Positions 4,525 through 11,416 of a stretch of DNA of 11,416 bases are shown piece by piece. The notes beneath the pieces were generated by a model. The model ran no database searches and had not been told where the DNA came from. It worked only from the letters and a program-made list of their open reading frames with translations. A program made the translations under genes and the position numbers. This stretch comes from Lachnospiraceae bacterium (lineage in GTDB: Bacteria > Bacillota > Clostridia > Lachnospirales > Lachnospiraceae), in NCBI GenBank assembly GCA_024697505.1, contig JAILFQ010000259.1:1-11416 (forward strand). The letters run 5' to 3'. Position 1 is the stretch's first letter, and each line of letters starts with the position of its first letter.

Positions 4525-6192
4525 TTACCAGGATTCACCGTCGTCAAAATCAAGAAGAGACGGATCTAACGGTTCTTCATGCATAACGGTGGTCATATAA
4601 TCGTTTACAATCTGTCTGATTTCTGCTCTTGAAACCACTCTCTTGTCCGGAAGCGCATGTGGCATCCAGATTGCGTGGATGTTGCGGGCACGGAACTCGT
4701 CTTCAAAGAGACCGTGTACACCCTGCATTCCCTTACACTGGAGCTGGTCGTACATCATTACCATGTCGCAGTGGAAACGCTCCATGTAGTCCCAGAGTTC
4801 AAAGATGTGGTGCATACCGCCGACGGCCATTCTTCTCATAGGAGCCCATTCATGGTAAACAGCCATATCGTGCAGGCAGTTTTCGTAAGTGTCTGTGCGG
4901 ATTGTCATATCAAACATAAGGGAGTCCCTATTAATGATACAATTAAGACCCCAACAGTTGTAAGCCCATGTACACCAGTTGGAATAGTAAAGGGGTGCAC
5001 AGGACCAGGCAATTACTCTGTGACGGGTAAGAGGAAAGGAATCTATTTTCTTCTCCACAACCTTATTTAAAATCTTTCTGACCTTTTTATCTGTTTCTGC
5101 CCAAATATCTCTGTATCCGTCCTGTGACTGATAGATACGGTAAAGGGCTTGGGCTACGCCGTTAATAGGATAGTAGTTTGTATTTGCGGCAACGTCCCAT
5201 TTCTCCCATTCAAATTCCTGAAGTTTGTTTTGTTTTTCAAGATATTCTTTTAATAATTCGAAGTTGAAAGGCTGGCCGGTCTGTTCTTCAATAAACTTCC
5301 AGCATTCTTCAATCTCTCTTTCGCAGTGCTCAAGAACCAGCGGATCGTCAAACTGCATAGGCTGAGGCATTGCAAAAAGCGGTTTGTTTATCATCCAGTC
5401 CTGAAGAACCGAAGTGGCAACGGAACCGTCGCAGGCTTCGTTGGAGGTTACAAAAGCAGGATAATAATCCGGCATATCATCGTCTACAAAGATTCCTGCT
5501 TCTGCCTGGCACATAGGGCAAGGGTCGCCCGGAAGGCCTATGGACTGAACGGCATCTATGTAGTGGAGAACGGTGTGGTTGTTAACATGGCAGGTAACAA
5601 AGTAAGGTATCATTTGGAGGGGAACATCGTCAAAGTTGTTTCTCCATGGATAAAAGATCCCGCCCCAGACTGTTTCGTCGTGGGCAAGCGTGTGGTCATG
5701 AAGTTCTTTGCTGCCGCCGTTTGAAACATCTGCCGCAAACATTCTCATAAACTGACGTATGGTTTCGCTTGTCATTGCGCGGTAGTGCCATGCGGATGCA
5801 CGAAGTGCCTCCCCTCTTAAGCCTTCTAGTCCTCTGTCGAACCAGTGCATAACCGGAAGATAGGTCTGGCCCATCCATCTGTAACGCCAAAGGCCGCGTA
5901 CAAAAGCGGGAAGTCCGCCGTACTTCATTATGTCCGTAACCATGTGTGCATAATTGTAAAGCCAGATCATATTAAAGTAGTAAAAGGTATCTTTAAGACC
6001 TCGCCACTCTCTGTGCTTGTAAAGACCGGTCTTTGGGAGATAAAGGTCTCCAAGGCGTCTTTCGCCATGGGGCTTGCCGTAAACAAAATCTTTTGCCAGC
6101 TTTTTGTAATCTGCTTCTTTTAACTTGTTAACGTCGAATTCCGAAATGGATTTGGCAACGTTTTTTACTTTTTCAAGGATGTTAAGTTTCAT
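4525..6192 (-). CDS. 2-hydroxyacyl-CoA dehydratase, alpha-like subunit
   Basis: The protein has 555 residues, longer than the roughly 400-480 usual for this family. The C-terminal third is the clearest match. HCDMVMMYDQLQCKG (474-488) corresponds to the HgdA-type segment with a cluster-ligand cysteine (C486), and NIHAIWMPHALPDKRVVS (504-521) with the following helix fits the substrate-domain end. Other cysteines are C201, C225, C228, C254, C290, C297, C398, C407, C413, C418, C439 and C475; GDPCPMCQAE (222-231) and the 398-418 group stand out. The family dehydrates (R)-2-hydroxyacyl-CoA through a ketyl radical, using a [4Fe-4S] cluster and one electron from an ATP-driven activator. The first 200 residues are rich in Trp and Tyr and are poorly recognisable to me. 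Its ATG overlaps the upstream stop (ATGA), and AAGGAG lies within the upstream gene. Substrate not assignable. Confidence 0.85.
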   Translation of the reverse strand: MKLNILEKVKNVAKSISEFDVNKLKEADYKKLAKDFVYGKPHGERRLGDLYLPKTGLYKHREWRGLKDTFYYFNMIWLYNYAHMVTDIMKYGGLPAFVRGLWRYRWMGQTYLPVMHWFDRGLEGLRGEALRASAWHYRAMTSETIRQFMRMFAADVSNGGSKELHDHTLAHDETVWGGIFYPWRNNFDDVPLQMIPYFVTCHVNNHTVLHYIDAVQSIGLPGDPCPMCQAEAGIFVDDDMPDYYPAFVTSNEACDGSVATSVLQDWMINKPLFAMPQPMQFDDPLVLEHCEREIEECWKFIEEQTGQPFNFELLKEYLEKQNKLQEFEWEKWDVAANTNYYPINGVAQALYRIYQSQDGYRDIWAETDKKVRKILNKVVEKKIDSFPLTRHRVIAWSCAPLYYSNWCTWAYNCWGLNCIINRDSLMFDMTIRTDTYENCLHDMAVYHEWAPMRRMAVGGMHHIFELWDYMERFHCDMVMMYDQLQCKGMQGVHGLFEDEFRARNIHAIWMPHALPDKRVVSRAEIRQIVNDYMTTVMHEEPLDPSLLDFDDGESW

Positions 6193-7382
6193 GCGCCCTC
6201 TCCTTCCTGCAGTTTCTTAATTTCCACGCTTTCAACAAAGGCCTGGAAACGGGTTCGAAGCTGTCCGGATGCAGAGTTAACGTATTCTTTTTCTATAGAG
6301 CAGGTTGGAATACCGAAGTCTCTCGGAAGGACTACGGCGTCTATTGTACGCTCGTAACTCCAGTATTCGCAGAACTTGTTGGATTCTACAATAAGTCCGT
6401 CTGCTTTGTATTCCTTGCAAAGGTCTGCAATATATTGCTTTCTGCCTCTCATTACGTCCTGCGGCATAAATCTAGGGCAGCAGCTGTATTCAATGTAGTG
6501 TCTTGCAATGGCGGCAAGAGGAGTTTCGCCTTCTTTAATAACAATCTCCTCACGACCCGGAAGAGAACCGTAACAATGACGGTCTGCAACCACAAGAGCA
6601 CCGCAGCTTTCTATAAGGTTTGTAAATTCAGGCATATCATTTTCCGCACCCGCAAGCACGACTTTAATACGCCAGTTAGGTTTAGGATCTGCCTTTCTTG
6701 TCTTCATTTCTTCTGCGGTTTCTCTGAGAGCCGGAAGAATTAAGTACTTTGGGCATACCATTGTAACAAGGTTTATAACGTGGAATTCGTAGCCGGTTAT
6801 TGTTGGGTTGTCCAGCTTTCTGTAGCTTCCTATTTCGGTAATAAGTCGGCAGACTTCGTTATGCTCTTCTATGGCCTTTATAAGAGCTTCGTCGGAGGTG
6901 TCTATGCCGAATTTTTCTTTAAGTTTATCCAAAACATGAGCCTGCAACTGGGTTTTGTAATGAAGAAGACTGTTTTCTGTCTTCTTAAAAGGTACATCAC
7001 AGAATTCGCAGAAGAAATCCGGATTTTGAATAACATCCATTCTCTGCAGATGCTCCTGGAAGCGGCAGGTAACCGTGCAGGTTTCCGTTGCCATTTGAGC
7101 ATCAAGAAAATTGAAACCGCCCTCCAGGGCGCGTTCCATAAGGCTTCTGCCGTAATGGCAGGTACGACCGGACATATAATAAGTAGCCATATCCGGAGAA
7201 ACACATCCCGGCGCACGCAGACGCACGCCAAAACATCCCGGAAGGTCTAACAAAACCTCCGGCATAAAAGAGCAGGTGTAACCAAGGGCGCGTTTACCCT
7301 CAGATCTTGCCTGCTTTACCAGATCGTTGTTGGCCTGCTGGAGCAGGTCTTCAAACTCGATCAGGTGCTTAAGATCCCTCAT
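6189..7382 (-). CDS. 2-hydroxyacyl-CoA dehydratase, beta-like subunit
   Basis: The protein has 397 residues from the ATG at 7382, chosen for the AGGAGG site just upstream; an in-frame ATG at 7439 lacks one and lies beyond the predicted transcription start. The HgdB/FldC-type fold is visible. RALGYTCSFMPEVLLD (31-46) is the family's opening motif, with a Cys at C37. IKVVLAGAENDMPEF (239-253) and ALVVADRHC (262-270) are the Rossmann-like C-terminal domain start. DGLIVESNKFCEYWSYER (328-345) carries the conserved cluster cysteine C338, and SASGQLRTRFQAFVE (370-384) is the near-invariant end. It carries 17 cysteines, many more than the three expected as ligands. It is the first gene of the operon and would form the heterodimer with the subunit it overlaps. 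The electron donor is probably an activator such as the one at 2-400. Substrate unknown. Confidence 0.88.
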   Translation of the reverse strand: MRDLKHLIEFEDLLQQANNDLVKQARSEGKRALGYTCSFMPEVLLDLPGCFGVRLRAPGCVSPDMATYYMSGRTCHYGRSLMERALEGGFNFLDAQMATETCTVTCRFQEHLQRMDVIQNPDFFCEFCDVPFKKTENSLLHYKTQLQAHVLDKLKEKFGIDTSDEALIKAIEEHNEVCRLITEIGSYRKLDNPTITGYEFHVINLVTMVCPKYLILPALRETAEEMKTRKADPKPNWRIKVVLAGAENDMPEFTNLIESCGALVVADRHCYGSLPGREEIVIKEGETPLAAIARHYIEYSCCPRFMPQDVMRGRKQYIADLCKEYKADGLIVESNKFCEYWSYERTIDAVVLPRDFGIPTCSIEKEYVNSASGQLRTRFQAFVESVEIKKLQEGEGA

Positions 7383-7454
7383 AATTATCCTCCTCACACT
7401 GCAAAAAAGACGAACTACGTATCCACCCAATACTAACATCGTGTTCCAACTTTT

Positions 7455-7612: not shown

Positions 7613-7810
7613 ATGTGTCTTTCCACAGTATATAAAATCCATGGAGATGAAAAGGAGCTTCTTTGCAAAAACATTGCAAGTGTAAGGCAAAAAGGCGATA
7701 AACTTATTTTTACGGACATAATGGGAATTCAGACAGAGGCTGAGGGGCTTCTTGAAAGAATAGACCTTATGGATAATTTTATTTACCTTAAAGATAAGGA
7801 AAGTGCTTAA
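7613..7810 (+). CDS. CooT-family nickel-binding protein
   Basis: This 65-residue protein has the family's MC start (MCLSTVY), a small beta-rich body (GDEKELLCKNIASVR, DKLIFTDIMG) and the end segment IDLMDNFIYLKD. In CooT of Rhodospirillum rubrum, Cys2 at the dimer interface is the nickel ligand; Cys2 is present here, and Cys18 is an additional cysteine. In CO-oxidising bacteria CooT helps supply nickel to carbon monoxide dehydrogenase, but the family is wider than that. The GGGAGG site supports the start. The next gene encodes a histidine-rich protein, which parallels the CooT-CooJ pairing and strengthens a metal role. No CO dehydrogenase gene is visible in the window, so the client enzyme is unknown. 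Confidence 0.82.
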   Translation: MCLSTVYKIHGDEKELLCKNIASVRQKGDKLIFTDIMGIQTEAEGLLERIDLMDNFIYLKDKESA

Positions 7811-7851
7811 AAATTTACTTAATGTATGAAGGGGCAAAAGGAGAGGTTAAT

Positions 7852-8184
7852 ATGAAGACAGCAGAAGAATTAATGGTAGTATTTGAGGAGCATTTTGACG
7901 ATTCTCATCATGAGGGAGAGGGTCATCACCATCACGAACACGAACATGACCACCATGAACACAGCCATCATCATGACGGGGAAAAGACGAGTCCTGAAGA
8001 GGCACTTGCACTTTTAAACTATATGGTGGGGCACAATAAGCACCATGCCGAGGAACTGCACGAGCTTGCCCATTCCGTCAGCGGAGAGGCAGCAGAACTT
8101 TTACACAGTGCTTTAAAGGACTACGAAGAGGGAAATGTAAAGCTTGAGAAAGCGCTCGGGCTTTTAAAAGGAGATAATAAATAA
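7852..8184 (+). CDS. Histidine-rich putative nickel/cobalt-binding protein
   Basis: The protein has 110 residues from the ATG at 7852, which follows AAAGGAGAGG; an in-frame ATG at 7822 would add ten residues without a comparable site. An N-terminal helix (1-17) leads into a His/Glu/Asp tract at about residues 14-43 holding 15 histidines. A helical C-terminal part follows (48-106), with six more in NYMVGHNKHHAEELHELAH and nearby. There is no cysteine, signal peptide or membrane span, so it is probably a cytosolic metal buffer. It lies 41 nt behind the CooT-family gene and 20 nt before the GH94 gene. Histidine tails are known in CooJ, HypB and UreE-type nickel proteins, but the body here does not look like HypB or UreE. 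Zinc or cobalt remain possible. Confidence 0.78.
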   Translation: MKTAEELMVVFEEHFDDSHHEGEGHHHHEHEHDHHEHSHHHDGEKTSPEEALALLNYMVGHNKHHAEELHELAHSVSGEAAELLHSALKDYEEGNVKLEKALGLLKGDNK

Positions 8185-10604: not shown

Positions 10605-10629
10605 AAGTGTTTTTATTTCAAAAAGGGTT
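10589..10629 (+). terminator. Long AU-rich hairpin across the GH94 stop codon
   Basis: AACCCTT (10589-10595) pairs with AAGGGTT (10623-10629). An inner arm of eight A/U pairs (10599-10606 with 10611-10618) and a G-C pair (10597 with 10619) form around GTGT. The stop codon lies in the left arm. The 3' end of the stem runs into the -35 box of the next promoter. There is no U-run after the stem, so it may be a weak terminator or an mRNA 3'-end structure. Confidence 0.45.
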
Positions 10630-10656
10630 GACAAATCATATGTTCTTTAATATGAT
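10628..10656 (+). promoter_or_regulatory. Strong sigma-A promoter of the exporter leader RNA
   Basis: A perfect TTGACA (10628-10633), a 17-nt spacer and TATGAT (10651-10656) form a near-consensus promoter. Transcription would begin at about 10662-10664, at the base of the first leader hairpin. It is the best-matching promoter in the window. Confidence 0.85.
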
Positions 10657-10714
10657 TGCATTGTCGGTGCTGGGACGGCGCCGGTAAATAATGAAGAAAG
10701 CGAGGCAGTAAAAT

Positions 10715-10792
10715 ATGTCCATTTTAAATTTCAGTAAAAATCGTAAATTTAATGATGTAACAAATAGTGCCTCGGCTTATATATTCGGTTAG
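10715..10792 (+). CDS. Putative 25-residue leader peptide in the attenuator
   Basis: A 25-codon ORF (starts MSILNFSKNRK, ends SASAYIFG, stop TAG) has GAGG (10702-10705) nine bases before its ATG. It fits wholly between the strong promoter and the terminator. Its ribosome-binding site lies in the 5' strand of helix B. Its codons 18-20 (AGT GCC TCG) contain the 3' strand of B, and codons 20-22 contain the 5' strand of antiterminator helix C. Its stop is in the loop of hairpin D. This layout is what a ribosome-controlled attenuator needs; BmrB ahead of the BmrCD exporter in Bacillus subtilis is the closest known parallel. The peptide has no cysteine or signal sequence and matches nothing I recognise. 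It could be a chance ORF within a structured RNA. Confidence 0.45.
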   Translation: MSILNFSKNRKFNDVTNSASAYIFG

Positions 10793-10820
10793 AAATACCC
10801 GAATACCATTCTTGGTTTTT

Positions 10821-10854
10821 AAGCCGTGGTACTTATGTGCCGCGGCTTTTTTTG
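10821..10854 (+). terminator. Intrinsic terminator of the leader RNA
   Basis: A 12-bp stem, AAGCCGTGGTAC (10821-10832) with GTGCCGCGGCTT (10837-10848), has two G-U pairs and a TTAT loop, followed by a run of seven T. It lies 132 nt upstream of the ABC transporter start, so the exporter needs read-through or a second promoter. Confidence 0.93.
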
Positions 10855-10985
10855 TGTCTTTTTTTCAGGTTGTTCAACCGGAATTTCCGCGGCATAAGTA
10901 ACGCAGGTGTTTAAGGCGAGGGAGGAAGTCTTAAATGCTGTATCGGTCGTAAGACCGCTTCATTGAAAGGGAGAATAATACAAAA
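10855..10985 (+). promoter_or_regulatory. Distal exporter leader: complementary segment, five-codon ORF and hairpin
   Basis: This 131-nt stretch lies between the terminator and the exporter start. CCGCGGCATAAGT (10887-10899) is complementary, with a two-base bulge, to the terminator loop and 3' arm (10831-10845). A five-codon ORF (MLYRS, 10935-10952) has GGGAGG nine bases before its ATG, and its TAA forms part of the GTAA loop of hairpin CGGTC (10944-10948) with GACCG (10953-10957). GTCTTA (10928-10933) can pair instead with TAAGAC (10950-10955). AAAGGGAG (10966-10973) is the exporter's own ribosome-binding site. I see no convincing second promoter here. Confidence 0.5.
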
Positions 10986-11416
10986 ATGAAGAAAGTCGGA
11001 ACTTACATAGCGAGATTCTGGTATCTTTATCTTTTTGGGGTAACCAGTCTTGTAATAAGTGTTGTCTTAGATATGATCTCGCCAAAAATAACAAAAAGCA
11101 TAATTGATGATGTAATTAAGGGAGGAAAGACGGAACTCCTCACCAAACTGCTTCTCGGAATTATTATCATTGCCGTAAGAAGGGCAATTTTCCAATATAT
11201 TAAGGAATATTCCTTCGATATGGCCAACTTTAATATTACAAAGAGTATGAGAAAGGATATTTTTGCACATATTCAAAGCCTTTCCGTAAACTACTTTGAC
11301 AAAACAAATACGGGAGAACTTATGGCCCGTATTAAAGATGATGTTGATAACATCGGAGACGGAATGGGGTACATTATAATGCTTCTTATAGAAGTAGCGC
11401 TGCACACCACTCTTGT
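10986..11416 (+). CDS. ABC exporter half-transporter, N-terminal part
   Basis: The gene starts at ATG 10986 behind AAAGGGAG and runs off the window end; 143 codons are visible. It matches the type I exporter membrane domain (MsbA/BmrA/LmrA-like). A cytosolic start (MKKVGTYIARFW) is followed by a first span at about 12-28 and a linker typical of the family (MISPKITKSIIDDVI). The second span lies at about 51-71. The cytosolic segment SVNYFDKTNTGELMARIKDD (100-119), which precedes the third span in these exporters, is strongly conserved. A third span begins at about 128. The ATP-binding domain should follow outside the window. Such half-transporters act as homo- or heterodimers to export drugs, lipids or peptides. 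The long regulated leader suggests inducible expression; whether a partner half-transporter follows cannot be seen. Confidence 0.9.
   Translation, partial: MKKVGTYIARFWYLYLFGVTSLVISVVLDMISPKITKSIIDDVIKGGKTELLTKLLLGIIIIAVRRAIFQYIKEYSFDMANFNITKSMRKDIFAHIQSLSVNYFDKTNTGELMARIKDDVDNIGDGMGYIIMLLIEVALHTTL

Follow-up and report, generated by a model that had tools for sequence, protein, structure and literature searches.

The DNA analysed here (the window) is a single contig of 11,416 bases from the draft genome, 70% complete, of a gut-type bacterium. Its 3′ end carries the beginning of a gene for an ABC exporter half-transporter, preceded by a leader with its own promoter, a short upstream reading frame (uORF) behind a strong Shine-Dalgarno (SD) sequence and a set of competing helices (Table 1). 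By the exporter, the closest named relatives are the Lachnospiraceae MAGs L007 and L008. In L007, a second half-transporter gene comes after the first, so that the exporter is likely to be a heterodimer. Another relative of the exporter, L018, scores 298.9 bits with YheI (BmrC), 321.1 with Sav1866 and 308.2 with TmrAB. Elsewhere in the window, positions 2-400 hold the final part of an acyl-CoA dehydratase activase-like gene, and 4525-7439 on the minus strand hold two genes of the HGD-D (2-hydroxyglutaryl-CoA dehydratase D-component) family. At 7613-8184, a 65-residue ORF lies beside a His-rich 120-residue ORF, the latter with no NCBIfam match; the pair may be similar to CooT and CooJ, which are nickel proteins.

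Table 1. Features of the exporter leader, in window coordinates
Feature	Position	Strand	Basis or remark
Promoter, TTGACA-17-TATGAT	10628..10656	+	11/12 consensus matches
5′ hairpin of the leader	10664..10684	+	folding
Extended SD stretch of the uORF, GAAAGCGAGG	10696..10705	+	sequence; alignments
Helix B (anti-antiterminator), 5′ arm, the SD of the uORF	10701..10707	+	covariation, folding
uORF, 25 codons, MSILNFSKNRKFNDVTNSASAYIFG	10715..10792	+	frame test, folding
Helix B, 3′ arm, anti-SD-like, uORF codons 18-20	10768..10774	+	covariation
Helix C (antiterminator), 5′ strand	10768..10779	+	folding, own-versus-other matching
Small hairpin between arm and terminator, contains the uORF stop	10783..10804	+	folding
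Helix C, 3′ strand, overlaps the terminator 5′ arm	10820..10831	+	folding, own-versus-other matching
Predicted intrinsic terminator (12 bp) with T tract	10821..10853	+	stem 10821-10848
ABC exporter half-transporter	10986..11414	+	truncated by the contig end

A preliminary description of this DNA had named a near-consensus promoter, a 12-bp terminator with seven T, and two overlapping 7-bp helices, B and C, wired as terminator, antiterminator and anti-antiterminator. All of these parts are present, and the wiring is borne out by conservation and covariation. From the promoter spacing, transcription is expected to start at about 10663. The seven T of the terminator include the last two T of its stem, helix B forms its seven pairs where it had been placed, and helix C, reported as 10773-10779 with 10820-10826, is longer, with 11/12 positions paired over its full extent, one G-T among them. 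What had been overlooked is the uORF and the fact that the 5′ arm of helix B is its SD. The 3′ arm of helix B lies inside the same uORF, 22 nt ahead of the stop. The terminator, predicted in silico, sits between uORF and exporter gene, and the antiterminator overlaps both uORF and terminator and, on sequence, folding and comparison, is exclusive of the latter.

Conservation of the leader and its reading frame

Relatives of the exporter were sought with its first 143 residues in 299 family genomes, i.e., genomes counted in the same family as the window. At E≤1e-3 all 299 gave a match of some kind; 57 rows, own genome included, lie at E≤5.1e-32, and the next row is at 3.1e-17. Together with L007 and L008 these 57 make up 59 exporter-upstream regions, among them L048 with 7 nt upstream only and L054, a repeat of the contig of L008. 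An SD, an ATG and a uORF of 14-66 codons, without any criterion for the arm, are found in 52/59 regions, and by this rule the uORF is missing in seven, one of which has only 7 nt upstream. A stricter rule that includes the arm is fitted by 31/59 regions, compared to 1.14 on average, and never more than 3, over 100 Markov shuffles; these figures, like all our leader statistics, ignore shared descent among the leaders compared. Reverse complements fit the stricter rule in 9/59 cases, which has to be seen in light of the near symmetry of the leader, since SD and arm are mutually complementary. Of 20 regions ahead of distant exporter paralogues, none fits the stricter rule. In 37/52 leaders (shuffles expect 2.1), the 110 nt preceding the SD of the uORF contain a promoter with at least 10/12 matches, and the SD stretch is conserved in both alignments that were made, one of 27 leaders and one of 15 rows with the RsgA leaders described below. 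The length of the uORF ranges from 24 to 54 codons across 53 leaders, three of which precede other genes.

At E≤1e-3, the leader DNA matched in 5 of 397 family genomes, its own included, the other matches being pieces of 27-41 nt. The pattern GAGGTAA..ATG..TTACCTC proved unspecific as a marker: it is present in 24/298 genomes, and no count given here rests on it because a backward control matches in many genomes too. A pattern searched in viral contigs gave four matches, of which two fall among phage-like structural genes, one inside an ORF and one inside a short ORF; all four were judged by eye to be chance.

Is the uORF a real reading frame? In each region we took an SD with ATG and then the first arm-like motif 35-140 nt further on, ignoring both the ORF and the complementarity; with L054 set aside, this kept 46/58 regions, in a few of which (e.g., L017 and L042) the first motif is not the arm of choice. 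The frame of the uORF is open through the arm, with its first in-frame stop 10-40 nt past the arm start, in 42/46 regions. The other two frames have a stop at this distance in 0/46 each and a stop ahead of the arm in 43/46 and 44/46, respectively. This contrast suggests that selection holds the frame open through the arm and then closes it, and the uORF thus seems to be under selection as a reading frame, with the spacing between arm and stop conserved.

Alternative helices and a proposed mechanism

About one 7-bp helix per 190 nt would, by a rough estimate, be expected by chance, so that helices B and C by themselves are weak evidence, and it is the comparison that lends them credibility. The leader (10663-10857) does fold better than its shuffles (z −5.08, 0/200 as good), and so does the leader lacking the 3′ arm of the terminator (10663-10830; z −2.71, 3/200 as good). 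When 27 leaders, chosen partly by helix score, are aligned with MAFFT on sequence alone, 97.9% of the helix B cells are paired, and two pairs of this helix have changed on both sides: one is U-A in 17 leaders, C-G in 7 and U-G in 3, the other A-U in 17, G-C in 6, G-U in 1 and unpaired in 3, the window being one of these 3. In the terminator, 8/11 pairs show changes on both sides. For helix B and terminator jointly, there are 48 cells changed on both sides, as against 16.8 in shuffles (0/500 as high) and 6-20 when the partners are slid out of register. The covariation of SD and arm is also seen in a set chosen without regard to helix or ORF, where SD base and arm base are T-A in 21 leaders, T-G in 9, C-A in 1 (L027) and C-G in 14 (Fisher p 7.5e-5, with one A-G left out of the table).

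Helix C was approached by asking whether an arm fits its own terminator better than those of other leaders. It does so with 0/5000 permutations as good over all 48 called leaders, some of which are likely to be wrong calls, and with 1/5000 in a hand-curated set of 34. Within the two SD classes the numbers are 149 and 69/5000 for the 48 called leaders and 120 and 190/5000 for the curated 34; the register of helix C differs between the classes, the GAGGC class using another one. Comparison among the leaders establishes the uORF with its spacing from arm to stop, helix B and the terminator, and lends weaker support to helix C.

When the complete leader is folded, the probabilities are 0.93 for helix B and 0.94 for the terminator, and the best fold with helix C forced reaches −59.2 versus −64.3 kcal/mol. 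If a ribosome on the uORF start codon is mimicked by hiding the RNA up to 10730, helix C has a probability of 0.98-0.99 for RNA ends at 10832-10844. With the SD hidden and the 3′ arm of the terminator complete, equilibrium folding goes back to the terminator (0.95-0.97), and helix C must therefore act by forming first. Likewise, RNA ending at 10836-10840 in the absence of a ribosome prefers helix C over B (0.89-0.94), so that helix B must also gain from its earlier formation. In these models, the results count against a purely thermodynamic reading.

We consider it likely that the leader is a ribosome-sensing transcription attenuator, and that translation of the uORF, which we infer to take place in cells, probably decides whether the exporter is made. 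The preliminary description had guessed at translation-responsive control, and this is now strongly favoured, helix B being composed of the SD of the uORF and a stretch of the same uORF. RNA polymerase would transcribe the leader with the uORF behind its strong SD. In the OFF state, ribosomes would finish the uORF and leave, or never load, the SD would pair with the arm in helix B, the terminator would form and transcription would end near 10855. In the ON state, a ribosome detained near the beginning of the uORF would cover the SD and free the arm; with the 3′ strand of the terminator still untranscribed, the arm could then form helix C with the 5′ strand, allowing readthrough into the exporter. 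A ribosome that has reached the uORF stop would lie just 3′ of the helix B arm while occupying the 3′ half of that of helix C, favouring OFF. With the usual ribosome footprint, a ribosome at the stop codon would cover roughly 10775 onward, that is, the 3′ half of the arm of C and hardly that of B. Such a footprint fits an OFF state under smooth translation and would explain why the distance from arm to stop is conserved.

A second RsgA gene behind the same switch

A covariance model (R1) built from the 27 leaders, which as training sequences match by construction, was searched against 298 family genomes and gave matches at 46 places in 40 genomes, 33 of them at exporter loci by position and 13 elsewhere. 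Six of these 13 (L146, L147, L149, L152, L153 and L154), none of them a training sequence, lie ahead of genes with an RsgA GTPase domain (Pfam). At L158, a training sequence, the switch stands ahead of another ABC transporter pair; L148 precedes a 626-residue ORF that has no assignment, and L155 an ORF that resembles, by eye, a TnpB-like transposon protein. L156 and L157, again training sequences, precede small ORFs of 94 and 54 residues that have no Pfam or NCBIfam match. L150, with no visible leader, and L151, with an ambiguous target, were not counted as targets.

Two strong RsgA genes occur in every one of the six RsgA genomes, a shorter one with an open frame of 295-314 residues and a longer one of 333-531 residues; it is the longer that has the switch ahead of it. 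One such second RsgA protein, compared with 240 family genomes at E≤1e-40, gave 39 matches in 38 genomes. Among 30 RsgA loci examined, 14 have an SD, a uORF of 21-24 codons, a CCTCGG arm and a terminator (an automatic rule counted 11/30), and all 14 rank among the top 17 by E-value (L193-L209). The switch is absent at two of these 17, L202 and L203, and at L208 the sequence ends too close upstream. Six of the 14 genomes were first found via the switch itself and eight independently. No convincing switch was seen at the remaining 13 loci, which include L210 with 58% identity to the query; the sole automatic match among them, L222, looks like chance. The uORFs of the RsgA leaders share a pattern around EY.M.TSV, and CCTCGG in the arm is invariant across the 15 aligned rows, the window among them. 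As for the proteins, the second RsgA of L149 is fused to an acetyltransferase (GNAT) domain (Pfam), and the open frames at L194, L195, L200 and L204 (529-535 residues) are like that of L149 in length only.

In RsgA leaders a conserved element also lies 3′ of the terminator, GGTCTCCATAC in L193, L194, L195, L197, L199 and L201 and AGTCTCCACAC in L200. It can pair with the arm region of the uORF and is perhaps a lock for the ON state. In the 6/14 leaders checked, the number of shuffles that pair as well, out of 200, is 1 for L193, 5 for L204, 6 for L205, 56 for L206, 21 for L207 and 42 for L209. For a downstream element of this kind in the window, 25/500 shuffles are as good, which is not significant.

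Beyond the family, a class-wide search with the model found 8/321 genomes, of which G000, G206, G573 and G320 belong to the family of the window. L187 (G580), from another family of the same class, has the SD GGAGGTC, the arm GACCTCC, a 21-codon uORF and two ABC exporter-like ORFs behind it, and makes a plausible leader for an exporter pair. L188-L190, the matches outside the family that were rejected, look like terminators only.

By name, RsgA is a small-subunit biogenesis GTPase, and finding a ribosome-assembly GTPase as the second target makes it more credible that the switch monitors translation. With pumps and RsgA preceded by the same switch, the two may answer to a common alarm that signals blocked protein synthesis. 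Going further, one modular RNA alarm might drive, throughout the family, both ABC export and a divergent RsgA that may protect or repair small subunits during a block in translation; we raise this tentatively, as a possibility that we would not yet bet on. If true, it would amount to an inducible ribosome-protection route, with a link to RsgA that we had not met before.

Competing explanations and known leaders

Could the leader sense something else? It might respond to translation initiation or the supply of 30S subunits, the loading of ribosomes on the strong SD setting the balance of helix B. This would agree with helix B containing the SD itself and with RsgA as the second target, but alone it leaves unexplained why the frame stays open and closes just past the arm, and we regard it as unlikely. 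In an amino-acid-starvation attenuator of the trp-leader kind, a shortage of one charged tRNA would stall the ribosome in the uORF; the same wiring would do, and uORF translation would be the sensor in both cases. However, the 53 uORFs share no run of a single residue (the longest run is 1 in 7 of them, 2 in 38, 3 in 7 and 4 in 1, and the commonest residue, Asn, makes up 11.2%), and the targets are exporters and RsgA rather than biosynthesis genes, which makes starvation sensing very unlikely. Harder still to sustain is a plain terminator next to a translated small gene, without regulation and with the exporter served by another promoter: the uORF could encode a small protein, but nothing resembling a promoter turned up in a scan of the DNA from 10854 to the exporter, SD and arm covary, and the arrangement recurs ahead of orthologous exporters in many genera as well as before RsgA. 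The preliminary description had left the choice between attenuator and riboswitch, of which the attenuator is favoured, while a small-molecule riboswitch, for which alternative helices and a terminator would speak, is the least probable reading of all, given that Rfam, riboswitches and T-boxes included, has no match in the leader or its relatives (window at E up to 5, 12 loci with relatives at gathering score), that little is conserved beyond SD, arm and terminator (mean column identity 37% over 27 aligned leaders) and that a reading frame is conserved. Four permissive Rfam matches elsewhere in the window are all far below gathering scores.

A ribosome-sensing attenuator at this locus would work like the BmrB, VmlR, CplR and HflXr leaders while being constructed differently. 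The BmrB leader of bmrCD in Bacillus subtilis, induced by ribosome-targeting drugs, has in common with ours a leader ORF, a terminator, an antiterminator, an anti-antiterminator and an ABC exporter target, there a gene pair; its ORF is translated, and its anti-antiterminator is predicted, with a role that was left unclear there (PMC4191407). According to the same account, all three BmrB structures lie within nucleotides 60-162 of a 53-codon ORF, whereas here the uORF ends 28 nt ahead of the terminator (10792 versus 10821), which is outside the uORF, and one strand of the anti-antiterminator is the SD of the uORF (PMC4191407). The vmlR leader of B. subtilis likewise has a uORF, anti-antiterminator, antiterminator and terminator, and a ribosome stall prevents its anti-antiterminator; its 3-codon uORF lies inside a hairpin with the SD single-stranded ahead of it, its target is an ABCF protein, and an extra hairpin hides the SD of the target (PMC9226507). 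In the clostridial species Clostridioides difficile, the cplR leader is described as having a uORF in a 5′ hairpin and a terminator; it differs in its 3-codon uORF, its ABCF target and a terminator hairpin that also hides the SD of the target (PMC10201436). Precedents for the RsgA class, both compared by description, are uORF attenuators before genes of ribosome-acting factors: the hflXr/rli80 leader of Listeria, with a 14-residue uORF carrying an RLR motif and HflX rather than RsgA as target (PMC6310831), and the uORFC-6-1 motif before hflX (PMC8632094). What sets the present leader apart from those compared is that the anti-antiterminator is made of the uORF's own SD and own last codons, and that the uORF ends before the terminator. 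Among literature titles, of which coverage was partial, none was found to describe this leader, and we do not claim its absence from print.

By analogy with BmrB, VmlR, CplR and HflXr, a stalled ribosome would be the ON signal, and translation-blocking drugs or antibiotics would be a natural inducer; the drug-responsive control of the exporter proposed in the preliminary description may follow from the same analogy. The leader offers a mechanism, open to test, by which a block in translation may turn on export pumps in this family; the presence of the switch before the second RsgA links this gene to ribosome stress, so that its role can be tested as well.
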